Shown here piece by piece: positions 7,924 through 15,217 of a DNA stretch of 64,000 bases. The DNA lies in the NCBI RefSeq assembly GCF_034932065.1, contig NZ_JAYGHP010000009.1:1-64000 (forward strand), in the 5' to 3' direction. The DNA comes from Crocosphaera sp. UHCC 0190 (GTDB lineage Bacteria; Cyanobacteriota; Cyanobacteriia; Cyanobacteriales; Microcystaceae). The stretch's first letter is position 1. Each line of letters starts with the position of its first letter. The notes beneath the pieces are model-generated. The model worked only from the letters and a program-made list of their open reading frames with translations. It did not search any database and was not told where the DNA came from. A program made the translations under genes and the position numbers.

Positions 7924-9024
7924 TCAAGTGGATATAAATTTCTCATGCCATTGTTGAGCGACTTTATCCCAACCAAATGAATCTTTAAGAGCTAATGCTT
8001 CCCGTCTTAAAGATTCTTGTTTCTCAGGATTTTTTAGCAAGTCTATCACTGCTTCAATAAAAGCATTATTAGTTTCTTCATCGCCAGCAGGCCCCTTAAT
8101 TCTGATACCTGATTTCACAGTTTCATCTAAAGCTGCACAAGTTGTCACCACAGGAACACAACCAGCAGCTTGCGCTTTCCAAGCACTAATACAGAAAGTT
8201 TCCGCAGCCGTATGACAAGGATAAACCCAGATTCCCGATTGAAATAATTCTTTAACTAACTCCTTGTGTCCAATTCTGCCATGTTCATAGACATTTTTAT
8301 GCTCAAAAAGTTGTAAAATTCGTTTCTTTTTATCTGGTAATTGTGGAAACCTCTCAATATAAGGTGAATTGATTAAAGCATCAATTCCTTGCCAACCATA
8401 AAAAATATGTAATTCAACATCTGGCACTTCTTGGAGAACCCTATCCCATTGATTTAGTAAATGTTCAATTCCTCTTGTATAATCACTAATCGAAATTAGT
8501 CTCTTGGGATTCCTAGTAATTCCTGTTAAACTAAAATCTTCTAGATTAATACCATTAGTTGTTAAAAATATCTTGTCTTCAGGAATCCATTCTGGGAGAA
8601 GAGATGTCTGGAAATTTGAAAGCATAAATAACTTGTCAAAACTGGCTAAAAATTCTGATTTCTGAGAATCTTCTACTGGAGAAAATAATTGAGGGTTGTC
8701 GTGCATCCAGACAGCAGTTTTTCTGGCTTTAACTTTCATTTGCATTGGTTGTATCCAAGCACGATGAAAGATTAAGACATTAAAGTTATCTTGGGGATTA
8801 AATTTATCAGCAGACTGATAAACTACACCATTATATTTCCCTTCCATCTCACCGCATCTATTAAAAATAGTAACCTGATAGCCTAACTTAACTAATTCTT
8901 GACTTAAGTAAATTACCGCTTCCTCGCTTCCTCCAACACCTTTATTTACAGATAACGGCGACCAATCTTCTACATGAAATGGAAAATTAGCATAAATTAC
9001 AATTGAGTCATTGTCCCAGTTCAT
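7924..9024 (-). CDS. glycosyltransferase, GT4-like
   Basis: A 366-residue GT-B glycosyltransferase. The N-terminal domain has the KGVGGSEEAVIYLSQELVK helix typical of nucleotide-sugar GT-B enzymes, then YQVTIFNRCG. The C-terminal domain has HGRIGHKELVKELFQSGIW and YPCHTAAETFCISAWKAQAAG, with the E(x7)E-like signature used to bind the sugar-nucleotide, and a helical tail. The cytosolic location and a role in surface glycan or lipid glycosylation are inferred from the family. It stands alone; the 5' side is a 270-bp gene-free stretch with a repeat. Confidence 0.82.
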   Translation of the reverse strand: MNWDNDSIVIYANFPFHVEDWSPLSVNKGVGGSEEAVIYLSQELVKLGYQVTIFNRCGEMEGKYNGVVYQSADKFNPQDNFNVLIFHRAWIQPMQMKVKARKTAVWMHDNPQLFSPVEDSQKSEFLASFDKLFMLSNFQTSLLPEWIPEDKIFLTTNGINLEDFSLTGITRNPKRLISISDYTRGIEHLLNQWDRVLQEVPDVELHIFYGWQGIDALINSPYIERFPQLPDKKKRILQLFEHKNVYEHGRIGHKELVKELFQSGIWVYPCHTAAETFCISAWKAQAAGCVPVVTTCAALDETVKSGIRIKGPAGDEETNNAFIEAVIDLLKNPEKQESLRREALALKDSFGWDKVAQQWHEKFIST

Positions 9025-9164
9025 ATTATTTGATTATTTGATCATCAGAAAAAATTATAATGGAAATATTTTATACGTAATTTCAACATTTTGTCAAATG
9101 AATTTTATAAATAAAAAATCCTTGATTTTGTGTAACTGAAGCATAAAAAATAGTAGAATTAATA

Positions 9165-9275
9165 CTTGTATACAGGCTCAAGCCTTATGCTATAAAAACA
9201 AAGACTGTCTACACAGCCTAATTATAAGCCTGGGAAAACAGGCTTTGTTTGTCTAACTTAACCTTTCAGGGTTAA
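9165..9275 (-). repeat. intergenic multi-hairpin repeat, copy 1
   Basis: Read on the minus strand it shows three successive small inverted repeats: AACCC...GGTT (9260-9273), AAGCCT/AGGCTT (9226-9231 with 9240-9245), and an imperfect AGGCT...AGTCT pair near 9201-9219. They are followed by a tail like ATAGCATAAGGCTTGAGCCTGT. The same order of hairpins and similar linkers appear on the plus strand at 63654-63766. The space 9025-9293 holds no gene I can support. Confidence 0.55.
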
Positions 9276-9293
9276 ACTCAATGATATTTAATC

Positions 9294-9602
9294 CTATTCC
9301 CTTTCTTCCAATTTCTTTTGTAAACTTTTTAAGGTTTGATACATCTCAGGAAGCCGCTTATAAATAGCAGATACTTTTAAATATAATTTATTAGGAACTG
9401 CTGGACTACTAGAGACAATTTCACCAGCAGCAACATCATTGGGAATACCTGTTTGAGCCGTAGCGATCGCCCCGTCTCCAATTTTAGCTTGATTGGCAAC
9501 CCCTACCTGTCCCGCCAAAATCACCCGTTTACCGAGGGTTACGCCCCCTGCTAACCCGACTTGGGCCGCCATGACACAATTTTCATCAATTTGGCAGTGC
9601 AA
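9294..9602 (-). pseudogene. lpxD: duplicated 3' end of lpxD
   Basis: The 102-residue frame is a copy of the last ~100 residues of LpxD (encoded in full at 10425-11465). From CQIDENCVMAA to the KKLE end the proteins differ at one position (K here, R in the full copy, in ANQAKIGDG). At DNA level I count nine substitutions over about 300 bp; eight are silent. Similarity starts abruptly at TTGGCAGT (about 9590-9597), so five left-handed-helix turns and the entire N-terminal domain are missing, and the fragment cannot be an active acyltransferase. The tail here reads EERE after KKLE, while the full copy stops at KLE. See the finding on this duplication. Confidence 0.85.
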
Positions 9603-9671
9603 TTAATTTTGTTTAGGCACTTAATACAATCGCCAATTTCACCATAACCTAGTTTCGTCGAACTCAGATTG

Positions 9672-10343
9672 TCAGGTTAAGTCAGTTGGGCTTATTTTTT
9701 TTTGTTTCTTTTTCGAGAGTTCCCTCCTAAAAAAACCTCCAAACCCCAGAGCTATTCCTGCACCGAGAAAAGTCAGAGGCTCTGGAACCGGTTTCTTTGT
9801 TGCTGTCCAAGTACCTCCATCCTGAGGAGGATCTGGATAAAAATTTAAGGATTGACGCCATGACCCATCGCTCCAAATATATAAGACAATCCCATCCTCG
9901 TAGCCATATCTATCACCGAATGACCAAAAGTTCTCTAGATAACCATACAGACCTGATACTTTGTTGTGAGATATTTGCCTAGGGATATTGAATTCTGTAT
10001 CCCACCAGATATCTGCCTTTTCTCCCAAATCATATACCCACTCATGTCCTTGTATTTTGGCATCAAAACTAATTAATTTACCCTCGGATGCGGTAGCTTC
10101 TCCATTTTCGATCAGAGTTTCTATGGGTATATATTCCAAGTAGGCACAAGAAGATGGATCATTAGCAGGAGCACAAAAAGTCGTATTTGAATCGTAACTA
10201 AACCCACCAGAACCTAATTGGTTGCCAGAGTCATCAAAAAATTTTAAATCATATTCTATTTTTGCGGCATACGATGGATTAACATTAAGTATCCCTACAC
10301 TGAGAGCAAAAGTGGCCATAGTTAGTGAAATTTGATTAATCAT
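9672..10343 (-). CDS. PEP-CTERM sorting domain protein
   Basis: A 223-residue exported protein. A signal peptide covers about residues 1-27 (ends NPSYAA). The mature part is rich in aromatic and acidic residues and has one cysteine pair (TFCAPANDPSSCAY). The C-terminus carries the PEP-CTERM signal: VPEP, then a hydrophobic helix (LTFLGAGIALGFGGFF), then the basic RRELSKKKQKK. Such proteins are processed by exosortase and delivered to the cell surface or exopolysaccharide. The mature domain is not one I recognise; related cyanobacterial proteins are annotated only as PEP-CTERM proteins. It sits between the full lpxD and the duplicate lpxD 3' end, all on the minus strand. Confidence 0.85.
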   Translation of the reverse strand: MINQISLTMATFALSVGILNVNPSYAAKIEYDLKFFDDSGNQLGSGGFSYDSNTTFCAPANDPSSCAYLEYIPIETLIENGEATASEGKLISFDAKIQGHEWVYDLGEKADIWWDTEFNIPRQISHNKVSGLYGYLENFWSFGDRYGYEDGIVLYIWSDGSWRQSLNFYPDPPQDGGTWTATKKPVPEPLTFLGAGIALGFGGFFRRELSKKKQKKISPTDLT

Positions 10344-10424
10344 TAGCTTCCTTTAAAATTAAGATTCAACCCTACTATAGCTCATTCAACCTAAGTTCGA
10401 TTTTAGGAGTTCGGAGGAGTTATT

Positions 10425-11465
10425 TTATTCCAATTTCTTTTGTAAACTTTTTAAGGTTTGATACATCTCAGGAAGCCGCTTATAAATAGCAGACACTTTT
10501 AAATATAATTTGTTAGGAACTGCCGGACTACTAGAGACAATTTCACCAGCAGCAACATCATTGGGAATACCTGTTTGCGCCGTAGCGATCGCCCCATCCC
10601 CAATTCTAGCTTGATTGGCAACCCCTACCTGTCCCGCCAAAATCACCCGTTTACCGAGGGTTACGCCTCCTGCTAACCCCACTTGGGCCGCCATGACACA
10701 ATTTTCATCAATTTGGCAGTTATGGGCAATATGAACCAAATTATCCAGCTTGCTATTACGTCCAATGCGCGTCGTTCCCACCGCCGGGCGATCAACTGCA
10801 CTATTACAGCCAATTTCTACCCCATCCTCTAAGATGACATAGCCTGATTGTTCCATCTTAAACCAACCATCAGGAGTCGGAACAAAGCCAAACCCTTCTG
10901 AGCCAATTACTGCCCCACTGTGAATCGTGCAACCAGATCCAATTTGGGCCCGTTCATGGATGGTACAATTAGCATGAAGAATCGTGCGATCGCCAATGGT
11001 TACATCAGGATAGATGACCACATTGCCATGCAGACAAACGCGATCGCCAATGGTTACACCCTCTTGAATTACTACATGGGGGCCAATAAACACATCTTGA
11101 CCAATTTTTGCCGTGGGATCAATGACTGCCGTGGGATGAATACCAGGGGCAGGATGGAAGGGACGATAAAATAATTTAATAGCGTGAGCGAAGGTTAAAC
11201 GGGGTTCTGGGGTAGTTAACCAAGCAATACCGAATTGTGTTGCTTGTTGTTGTAAAGCCTCATCATGGGGCAAAATCAAGGCACTGGCGGCGGTTTTTCC
11301 GATCATCGCGGCAAACTTTGGCCCTTCAATGTAGCTGAGGTTTCCTGTTACTGCTTCATTCACCGCAGCGACTCCAGTAATTTCTGGGTTATTCTCACTA
11401 TTCGTCGTCAAACTATGTTCAGTTACTAACGGATGTAAACTGTCAACAATTTCCTGAAATTTCAT
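10425..11465 (-). CDS. lpxD: UDP-3-O-(3-hydroxyacyl)glucosamine N-acyltransferase
   Basis: Third enzyme of lipid A synthesis: transfers a 3-hydroxyacyl chain to the amine of UDP-3-O-acylglucosamine in the cytosol. The 346 residues match LpxD. The N-terminal uridine-binding domain (about 1-105) is followed by a left-handed beta-helix of hexapeptide repeats (IHPTAVIDPTAKIG onwards, to about residue 310) and a C-terminal helix (KRLPEMYQTLKSLQKKLE). The catalytic histidine is expected in LVHIAHNCQIDENC, about residue 245. It is not next to lpxA, lpxC or fabZ here. The last ~100 codons are duplicated at 9294-9602; the protein itself appears intact. Confidence 0.94.
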   Translation of the reverse strand: MKFQEIVDSLHPLVTEHSLTTNSENNPEITGVAAVNEAVTGNLSYIEGPKFAAMIGKTAASALILPHDEALQQQATQFGIAWLTTPEPRLTFAHAIKLFYRPFHPAPGIHPTAVIDPTAKIGQDVFIGPHVVIQEGVTIGDRVCLHGNVVIYPDVTIGDRTILHANCTIHERAQIGSGCTIHSGAVIGSEGFGFVPTPDGWFKMEQSGYVILEDGVEIGCNSAVDRPAVGTTRIGRNSKLDNLVHIAHNCQIDENCVMAAQVGLAGGVTLGKRVILAGQVGVANQARIGDGAIATAQTGIPNDVAAGEIVSSSPAVPNKLYLKVSAIYKRLPEMYQTLKSLQKKLE

Positions 11466-11509
11466 AGTAATTAAAGCTTGTTACCTTGGTATTTATTAAT
11501 TATTACTTA

Positions 11510-12502
11510 TTACTTATGAACTTTCCCATCAGGCATGGTGGCCCCGCGTAAAATCACCCCGGCCAGATTAGCACTCATTAATTCTGCCCTAGTTAAATTA
11601 GCATTAGTCAGATTAGCTCCCATCAGATTTGCTCTAGCAAAAAAGGCTTCCACGAGATCGGCCTCACTTAAATTCGCCCCAGATAAATTAGCCCGACTCA
11701 AATCCGCATGATTCATCCGAGTTAAGCTTAAATTAGCCTGATTGAGATTAGCACGATTTAGCACCGCATGAGTCATCACAGCCCCCTTAGCATTAATTCC
11801 AGCTAATTCTGCTTGGGAAAGTTGGGCCCGCACTAAGTTAGCATTGGTTAAGTTAGCATCGGTGAGTTTAGCCCCGGTTAAATTGGCATCGGTGAGCAAG
11901 GCCCCTTTGAGATTAGCATTAGTTAAATCTGCCTTGCGTAAATCCGCATCCCGCAAATTTACTTCTTTCAGATTAGCCCCAACCAGGTTAGCGCGACTGA
12001 GATCAACCCCTTTCATATTTGCCCCTTGAAAATCGGCCCTGGCCAAATTAGCCGCTTGTAAGTTTGTGTAATAGCCCTTCTTTTCCTGACGCATATTAGC
12101 CCCCCGAAAACAAGATCCGGTAAGGGTGGCCCCGCTTAAGTCAGCCCCCCGTAAATCAGCCGAGATGAGATTTGCGTCTAAAAAGTTGGCTAGAGTAATG
12201 TCTGTATCTCTAAGGTTTGCCCCTTGTAAGAGGGCCCCATGTAACGTCGCACTCCGTAAGTCAGCCCCACTGAGATCCGCTTGACTGAGATTGGCACCGC
12301 TTAAATTTGCCCCTACTAAATTTGCTTGAGTCAGGTTAGCGCGGTTAAAGTAAACAAAAAGCAGATTAGCCCCATGTAAATCTGCTTCATTGAGGATAAT
12401 GCCGATTAAATCTGCCCCGACTAAGTTGATTCCTGGTAATTTCAATCCATGAAAGAGGGTTTCTCCCGCAGCATAACGCTCAATAAGTTCATTGGCTTTC
12501 AT
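11510..12502 (-). CDS. pentapeptide repeat protein
   Basis: The 330 residues consist almost entirely of A(D/N)LXX pentapeptides, for example LSGADLRSATLHG and NLTGAKLTDANLT, which fold as a right-handed quadrilateral beta-helix. A short N-terminal helix (MKANELIERYAAGE) caps it, and a break near residue 140 (MRQEKKGYYTNLQ) interrupts the repeats. There is no signal peptide. The biochemical role of most cyanobacterial pentapeptide proteins is unknown. It starts 6 bp after the stop of the helical-repeat gene at 12509-13660, so the two form an operon. Strong codon repetition along the gene could mimic a tandem DNA repeat. Confidence 0.9.
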   Translation of the reverse strand: MKANELIERYAAGETLFHGLKLPGINLVGADLIGIILNEADLHGANLLFVYFNRANLTQANLVGANLSGANLSQADLSGADLRSATLHGALLQGANLRDTDITLANFLDANLISADLRGADLSGATLTGSCFRGANMRQEKKGYYTNLQAANLARADFQGANMKGVDLSRANLVGANLKEVNLRDADLRKADLTNANLKGALLTDANLTGAKLTDANLTNANLVRAQLSQAELAGINAKGAVMTHAVLNRANLNQANLSLTRMNHADLSRANLSGANLSEADLVEAFFARANLMGANLTNANLTRAELMSANLAGVILRGATMPDGKVHK

Positions 12503-13829: not shown

Positions 13830-13990
13830 GACACTCCCCGACCTAAAGGTACGGGGATTTTCAATCAACGACCCGTCTTGCTGTCCCAGGACGAACCAAC
13901 AACAGTAGAGGACAAATCTCCTGAAGCGTTCGGATCTAAGATCCAGGTTCCGACGTGACCCGTCGTACCCAAGGCTCGATTAAGAATATT
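13830..13990 (-). ncRNA. putative reRNA/omegaRNA of TnpB (extent approximate)
   Basis: TnpB nucleases are guided by an RNA made from the 3' end of tnpB plus the right end of the element, with the guide lying just outside the element. The right-end hairpin at 13836-13856 and the last tnpB codons would form the scaffold here. The guide would then begin near 13829 and read into the flank (minus strand, starting near TCTGCCATTCCC). Placement follows the family rule; I see no direct evidence of a transcript. Confidence 0.35.
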
Positions 13991-15124
13991 AATAGCTGCG
14001 TTTTCATCACGATCTAATTGACACCCGCAAGCACAAATATGGGTTCTTGTAGATAAGGATTTTTTAACAACAGCACCACAATTAGAGCAATTTTGAGAAG
14101 TATATGCAGAGTTAACAGCAACAGTTACCCTCCCCATTTTTACCCCAAAATATTCTAACCATTTTCTGAATTGATACCAACCAGCATCAACCCCCCAACC
14201 CCCCTTACTAAGGGGGGCAGAGGGGGGTGCTAAACAATGGTTTTTAACTAAGTTTTTAATCCTCAAATCTTCATAGGCGACCAAATCGTTAGATTGGATT
14301 ACGCAACGGGCTAGTCTCTTAGCGTGTTCTTCACGTTGCCTAATTATTTTAAGGTGTTTACGACCAAGCTTATTAATGGCTTTTTTTCGGTTGATTGAGC
14401 CTTTCTTTTTACGAGAAACCCGATGTTGATAAAATCTTAGTCGTTCTTCCCCTTGACGATAAAATCTAGGGTTAGGTTCAGTCTGTCCCATTGAATCAGT
14501 GTAGAATTCCTTTAAACCAACATCTAAACCAATGGTTTTCTGGGTTGGAGGTAATTCTTCTCTTACATCAACAGAGATGCAGAATTGACAGTAATAACCG
14601 TCTGCTCTACGCACTAACCTAACTCTTTTAATCTTGTTTTGTGGGTAAAAAGCCAAATCCCAAGTCCCAATTAACTTGAGTTTTCCGATTCCTTTTTTAT
14701 CAGTAAACTCTATATGTTTAGGATCTAAAAGTTTCCATCCACTGGTTTTATACTCGACTGAACGAGCATTTTTCTTAAAACATGGATAGCCTGCTTGGTT
14801 TCCATAATCTCGCCGTGCGACGGCGAGTTGCGAATCCACTTTTTTCCCAGGAATTTGCTTCTTACAATTATCAAAGAATCTAGCTATGGATGACCAGCCT
14901 CTTTCAACAGAAGCCTGAGTTGCATGAGAGTTCAAGTCTTTAACAAAGGGAAATTCAGAACGTAATTTTGTATTGTACCGATAAAGCTCAGCACGACTAA
15001 CATTCTTACTATCCATCCAATGACGCAAGCATTTGTTTCTAACGAATTGAGCCGTTTTTATGGCTTCATCGATAGCTTGGTATTGATGTTTTTTTCCTTT
15101 GACTTTGAACTCGTAGACTATCAT
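13865..15124 (-). CDS. tnpB: RNA-guided nuclease TnpB (IS200/IS605 family)
   Basis: About 419 residues. An N-terminal helical region (IDEAIKTAQFVRNKCLRHWM) precedes a split RuvC nuclease domain with all three acidic motifs: Asp in IGLDVGLKEF (about residue 201), Glu in VAYEDLRIKNL (about 285) and Asp in LDRDENAAINIL (about 371-373). A zinc ribbon lies between the last two (CSNCGAVV and CACGC). The catalytic residues are intact, so cleavage activity is plausible. I chose the ATG at 15124; the frame can be opened 3 codons earlier at a TTG. Two in-frame segments look foreign: about residues 96-111, and about 300-312 (SAPLSKGGWGV). Each is encoded by a GC-rich palindrome and absent from the usual TnpB pattern. 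A TTATACT -10-like box lies at about 15153-15159. Confidence 0.92.
   Translation of the reverse strand: MIVYEFKVKGKKHQYQAIDEAIKTAQFVRNKCLRHWMDSKNVSRAELYRYNTKLRSEFPFVKDLNSHATQASVERGWSSIARFFDNCKKQIPGKKVDSQLAVARRDYGNQAGYPCFKKNARSVEYKTSGWKLLDPKHIEFTDKKGIGKLKLIGTWDLAFYPQNKIKRVRLVRRADGYYCQFCISVDVREELPPTQKTIGLDVGLKEFYTDSMGQTEPNPRFYRQGEERLRFYQHRVSRKKKGSINRKKAINKLGRKHLKIIRQREEHAKRLARCVIQSNDLVAYEDLRIKNLVKNHCLAPPSAPLSKGGWGVDAGWYQFRKWLEYFGVKMGRVTVAVNSAYTSQNCSNCGAVVKKSLSTRTHICACGCQLDRDENAAINILNRALGTTGHVGTWILDPNASGDLSSTVVGSSWDSKTGR
14199..14217. repeat. GC-rich palindrome inside tnpB (insertion 2)
   Basis: CCCCCCTTA C TAAGGGGGG: 9-bp arms around one base. It encodes part of APLSKGGWG in tnpB, a peptide that recurs in unrelated cyanobacterial proteins wherever this type of intergenic palindrome has landed in frame. 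It lies between the RuvC-II glutamate and the zinc ribbon. Confidence 0.7.
14809..14827. repeat. GC-rich palindrome inside tnpB (insertion 1)
   Basis: CTCGCCGT GCG ACGGCGAG: 8-bp arms and a 3-base loop. It is translated as part of the segment SQLAVARRDYGN that interrupts the usual GKKG(Y/F)P.FKK run of cyanobacterial TnpB proteins. The GC content contrasts with the surrounding AT-rich gene. Confidence 0.65.
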
Positions 15125-15217
15125 TTGACGCAAGACTTGTGAGCGTAAACTCAGTATAACATAAAATATTGAGACTGTGCGCCGTAAACGGCGGGGCTTG
15201 AACCCCTGATTTTTCGG

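Follow-up and report, generated by a model that had tools for sequence, protein, structure and literature searches.

Homology-facilitated illegitimate recombination, together with the by-products of single crossovers, is known from S. pneumoniae, A. baylyi and P. stutzeri, and in E. coli the e14 prophage inserts into icd in such a way that the insert brings its own 3' end for the gene, the old end being left as a fragment. When events of the former kind were selected in E. coli, most proved to be partial duplications in which 109-950 bp from the homologous end of lacZ were repeated, which were explained by a circle route, and the published microhomologies were mostly of 3-10 bp (PMC3240628). 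A related process has been proposed to account for the displaced effector 3' ends found, along with orphan immunity genes, in the type VI clusters of Vibrio and in Rhs loci (PMC5361080).

The lpxD locus considered here lies in a 64-kb stretch of DNA, the whole of which was analysed and which we refer to as the window. It shares with the E. coli lacZ events one apparently homologous junction, a second at short homology and a cargo between the copies, and its partial duplication (297 bp) falls in the same size range (PMC3240628). An old 3' end would have been pushed downstream, and left as a remnant, by an incoming module that is anchored by homology, as is proposed for the type VI clusters of Vibrio and for Rhs loci; those loci, however, carry selected effector-immunity cassettes in arrays, whereas here a housekeeping gene, lpxD, provides the anchor, and there is one cargo gene and no array (PMC5361080). 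Partial duplication by recombination with incoming DNA is also a property of the merodiploids that arise on transformation of S. pneumoniae, but these are mainly tandem duplications of 100-900 kb between repeats (PMC3784515). The kind of event is thus already known, and the present example is clean rather than extraordinary. On the minus strand, intact lpxD is followed by an 81-nt spacer, a gene for a PEP-CTERM protein, about 73 nt and then a second lpxD 3' end, beyond which are a dispersed repeat and a glycosyltransferase gene. The features, in this order, are as follows.

10425-11465, minus strand: intact lpxD (UDP-3-O-(3-hydroxymyristoyl)glucosamine N-acyltransferase), 346 aa, ending KLE-stop; TIGR01853
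10425-10720, minus strand: the lpxD 3' end that is repeated downstream, carrying the derived R287 and early stop at codon 347
10344-10424, minus strand: spacer of 81 nt from the lpxD stop to the PEP-CTERM start
9672-10343, minus strand: PEP-CTERM protein gene (223 aa; TIGR04155), the cargo between the two lpxD ends
9634-9666, plus strand: 33-nt piece, 32/33 identical to one other site in the genome (G000:C8:151141-151173)
9597-9624, plus strand: 28-nt putative IS630-type or MITE terminus, joined by its inner side to lpxD at a shared GT
9302-9598, minus strand: lpxD 3' end in its displaced position (codons 249-346); eight changes are synonymous and, as in relatives, residue 287 is K
9294-9301, minus strand: extra codons of the fragment (the end of EERE-stop), at the edge of the dispersed repeat and of uncertain origin
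9153-9293, plus strand: dispersed repeat of ~140 nt, present in the genome 28 more times in whole or in part (71-87% identity)

The intact gene scores 324 bits with TIGR01853 (equivalog cut-off 242.5), and the LpxD proteins of Crocosphaera and Cyanothece align full-length with its product at 81-86%; the stranded fragment by itself reaches 80.7 bits, below that cut-off. The duplication of about 300 bp of lpxD reported in the initial annotation is confirmed as a direct repeat of 297 nt (9302-9598 against 10424-10720, 96.6% identity, offset 1122); no other strong repeat occurs in the window. Homology stops, however, at about 9302, so that positions 9294-9301 may not be derived from lpxD. A recount of codons 250-346 agreed with the differences already reported (nine of the 97 codons, eight of them synonymous, with one K/R change at codon 287), and the difference in the last codons, KLE-stop against KLEERE-stop, is likewise real: codon 347 is a stop in intact lpxD and Glu in the fragment. 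Several contigs of this assembly are terminated by the same repeat end of ~126 nt, which suggests that the assembly k-mer was near 127; by comparison, the longest exact run common to the two lpxD ends is 66 nt, making misassembly an unlikely source of the arrangement.

Between the two ends dS is 0.127 and dN 0.0045, giving a dN/dS of 0.036 (Nei-Gojobori, 97 codons), and orthologue pairs from related genomes gave values of 0.006-0.054 for the same codons at a dS of 0.36-0.87. The probability of at least eight synonymous changes out of nine would be 0.00007-0.0006 if all changes had been neutral (transition weights 1 to 8) and 0.003-0.015 if only the fragment had been neutral since the split, the argument being drawn in each case from nine sites. 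Because the ratio is like that of functional orthologues and the probability for a neutral fragment is low, these figures support the view that most of the divergence arose while both copies were constrained, before truncation. A pseudogene since its origin would be expected to show unbiased changes, and the opinion given in the initial annotation, that a dead duplicate would not be so biased towards synonymous differences, is upheld (P at most 0.015).

Some of the differences can be polarised by comparison with relatives. Lys287 is found in most of these, and in all of the nearest, Arg287 being peculiar to the intact gene; moreover, position 347 is occupied in nearly all close relatives, as in the fragment, the intact gene stopping one codon earlier. 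Because the relatives resemble the fragment in both respects, it is the living gene that holds the derived protein changes, at 287 and 347. At synonymous sites, each copy has some states that are derived when judged by the majority state of the relatives, but such sites are saturated when polarised in this way, and a consistent direction is suggested at no sites other than K287, E347 and a few synonymous ones. Taken together, both copies look like two functional alleles that may have been brought together late.

The check proposed in the initial annotation was whether close relatives end in EERE and lack the PEP-CTERM gene, in which case the fragment would be the native 3' end and the insert foreign. 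The gene is absent from beside lpxD at all 33 loci inspected in relatives, which belong to other genera and in which the neighbours of lpxD were not conserved either; no relative, however, ends in EERE, most of the close ones ending KLEE-stop or KLED-S-stop. Only E347 can therefore be called ancestral. The EERE tail may or may not be native, since the far end of the fragment abuts the dispersed repeat of 140 bp and its last codons may have come from outside lpxD. Synteny was also considered as a means of picking the native lpxD end, but none of the neighbours in the window adjoins lpxD in the 33 relatives, and this decided nothing.

At its other end the fragment has a junction that the initial annotation missed, and that is newly described here: the cut end of lpxD is joined to the inside of what is probably a terminus of the IS630 or MITE type. 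The broken 5' end is fused at 9597-9598 to GTGCAATTAATTTTGTTTAGGCACTTA; 2 bp, GT, are common to codon 249 of lpxD and to the terminus on its inner side, and only the outer 28 nt of the element remain in the window, lpxD starting where the inside of the element should be. A 26-nt pattern representing the terminus occurs at nine sites in the genome, including this one (a reversed control gave none). In three of these, which lie at contig ends, it is preceded by the 39 C-terminal codons of a transposase, for which short tail alone Pfam gave no match. Assignment to the IS630/Tc1 type is suggested by the TA at the tip and by a complete relative in another genome (L189), which shares this terminus (TAAGTGCCTAAACAAAATTAATTACA) and encodes a DDE_3/HTH_32 transposase. 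Other copies of the terminus resemble MITEs with a GGTGGGCATTGCCCACC-like core, and where the 33-nt piece at 9634-9666 recurs in the genome, the sequence has the appearance of a short inverted-repeat element; pieces of mobile elements thus account for most of the ~73 nt that separate cargo and fragment. Because the broken end is fused to a terminus of this kind, the second junction is, as far as its sequence can tell, illegitimate or element-associated and not homologous.

We think it probable, with no great confidence, that the locus is a recombination scar, one side of which would have formed by homologous recombination within lpxD and the other by short-homology joining. An incoming segment of ~1.1 kb from a close relative would have comprised an lpxD 3' end, directly after it the PEP-CTERM gene and then the IS630-type terminus. 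On one side, homologous recombination inside the resident lpxD would have kept the gene whole, with a slightly different 3' end, and on the other, joining over ~2 bp would have fused the terminus to codon 249, leaving a second 3' end stranded behind the cargo. In a linear form, this would be homology-facilitated illegitimate recombination; in a circle form, the fragment would have been end-joined into a circle of 1122 bp before a single crossover into lpxD. What the sequences show are the two copies, their constrained divergence, both junctions and the single tail in relatives, whereas we infer that the segment was foreign, in which order the steps took place and that the stranded copy now serves no purpose. 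Insertion by recombination within the gene had already been put forward in the initial annotation, an interpretation that is supported in part, and it remains the best fit to the constrained divergence and to the presence of a single tail in 48 relatives, with the correction that the second junction is not homologous.

The details agree with this proposal to different degrees. At one junction, lpxD reads unbroken into a 3' end homologous to the stranded copy, as is expected where recipient-homologous DNA has recombined; at the other, the short homology is weak, at 2 bp instead of the usual 3-10 bp. Further departures from described cases of homology-facilitated illegitimate recombination are that this is a natural event, that an element terminus is present at the junction and that the gene is full length. 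Site-specific integration into the 3' end of a gene, as practised by e14 with its integrase, is not indicated: the insert of 0.8 kb has no integrase and is filled by the PEP-CTERM frame alone, and a repeat of 297 nt with 3% divergence is unlike the short core site of such systems. The illegitimate side shows a duplication and no deletion, whereas deletion is usual there, and duplications belong to the circle or single-crossover by-product class (PMC3240628). Competence is described for several cyanobacteria (PMC7690421), and in agreement with the proposal, homologues of comEC and dprA are present here, although these are widespread and no proof of competence.

The cargo itself is a PEP-CTERM protein gene. 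Its product has the C-terminal sorting signal (TIGR04155, 49.1 bits; cut-off 21.6), and a cyanoexosortase A (TIGR03763, 301 bits) is encoded on contig C2 of the genome. No paralogue of the body of the protein was found in this genome, where only the C-terminal signal has matches elsewhere; the best homologue of the body within the family (43% identity, in G027) is on a contig other than that of lpxD. The GC content of the gene is ordinary (0.393, against 0.383 in the window), and this counts against a foreign origin. A counterpart of the 81-nt spacer at 10344-10424 was sought elsewhere in the genome, and none was found.

The start of the PEP-CTERM gene is exactly 1122 nt from that of lpxD (10343, 11465), which is the offset of the repeat and equals lpxD (1041) plus the 81-nt spacer. 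The start would thus sit where that of a second lpxD would be, and the strongest of the other explanations, to which we give a minority chance of being right, is that a tandem pair of full-length lpxD genes diverged under selection and that 248 codons were recently lost from the start of the second gene. The PEP-CTERM gene and the IS630-type element would have come in, a deletion would have followed, and the fragment would be a freshly truncated paralogue. This explains the constrained divergence equally well, with no need of a donor, and outside the family, the order includes genomes with tandem or nearby lpxD pairs (G074, G133, G142 and G165). Against it, the 49 other genomes of the family provide no such pair: the lpxD tail is matched in 49 of 50 family genomes, twice only in this one and once in each of 48 others. 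Order-wide, 144 of 148 genomes have a match, and two matches were found, apart from this genome, in G074, G133, G142, G165 and G179, most members of these pairs being full-length to judge from how far their frames stay open (of those in G133, one is short and contains a stop). A tandem pair would also require a replacement that kept length to within about 1 nt, and lpxD homology in register is absent outside 9302-9598 (identity per 50 nt 0.14-0.40). Hidden homology between the PEP-CTERM gene and the 5' half of lpxD, suggested by the 1122-nt spacing, was looked for and not found. We count the match between the starts as a coincidence, and the recombination scar that we prefer does leave it to chance.

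Plain local duplication of the 3' end of lpxD, the copy being dead since then and its differences synonymous by chance, would be the simplest event, and partial duplications are common; we nevertheless regard it as improbable, as the synonymous excess has the low probability given above for a neutral fragment even with the intact copy constrained, and as the fragment keeps the K287 and E347 of the relatives, the non-synonymous change being in the living gene. The junction with the terminus, repeated as this is in the genome, could instead suggest that an IS630-type element or MITE near the lpxD of another strain carried the tail here by one-ended or aberrant transposition. This we find quite improbable: no opposite terminus was seen on the fragment's left, where 9025-9300 had matches to none but the other dispersed repeat family, and it would be left unexplained why the fragment follows its own gene in the same orientation. 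It is also highly doubtful that the lpxD tail and PEP-CTERM gene form a recombining module in this lineage, in which the tail would anchor swaps of surface-protein genes between strains and two tails would permit loss of the cargo. Least credible of all is that the fragment is kept because it is functional, whether by storing sequence for gene conversion or by providing a repeat through which the PEP-CTERM gene can be lost and regained, for although recombination between direct repeats of 297 nt with an exact run of 66 nt could remove the cargo, the fragment's open frame starts from a TTG within the element terminus with no evident ribosome site by eye, and the arrangement had no clear recurrence among about 190 genomes.

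If it is a recombination scar, the locus offers a natural and readable instance, in a cyanobacterium, of a small foreign gene landing by way of a housekeeping gene used as its anchor; both junctions can still be seen, and so can the divergence of the alleles. Such a case would be of use in showing that acquisition by one-sided homology takes place beyond the few species studied in the laboratory, and the understanding of LpxD and of PEP-CTERM proteins is unchanged by it.

Finally, we draw attention to some other aspects of the sequences discussed. An Rfam search of 8900-11600 matched no family; the repeat at 9153-9293, which was among the sequences without an Rfam match, contains several small inverted repeats, and some of its copies have the outer ends GTTCTACCGAAC and GTTCGGTAGAGCC. 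The nearby lpxD pairs in other families are at G074:C86:25562-26960, G133:C2:3233019-3234395, G142:C168:15167-18338 and G165:C1:1479326-1480667. Directly upstream of lpxD in the window is a long gene for a pentapeptide-repeat protein (11510-12502), a neighbourhood not seen in relatives, and 2.4 kb upstream of lpxD, at 13865-15133, there is a gene for a TnpB-family RNA-guided endonuclease (NF040570).
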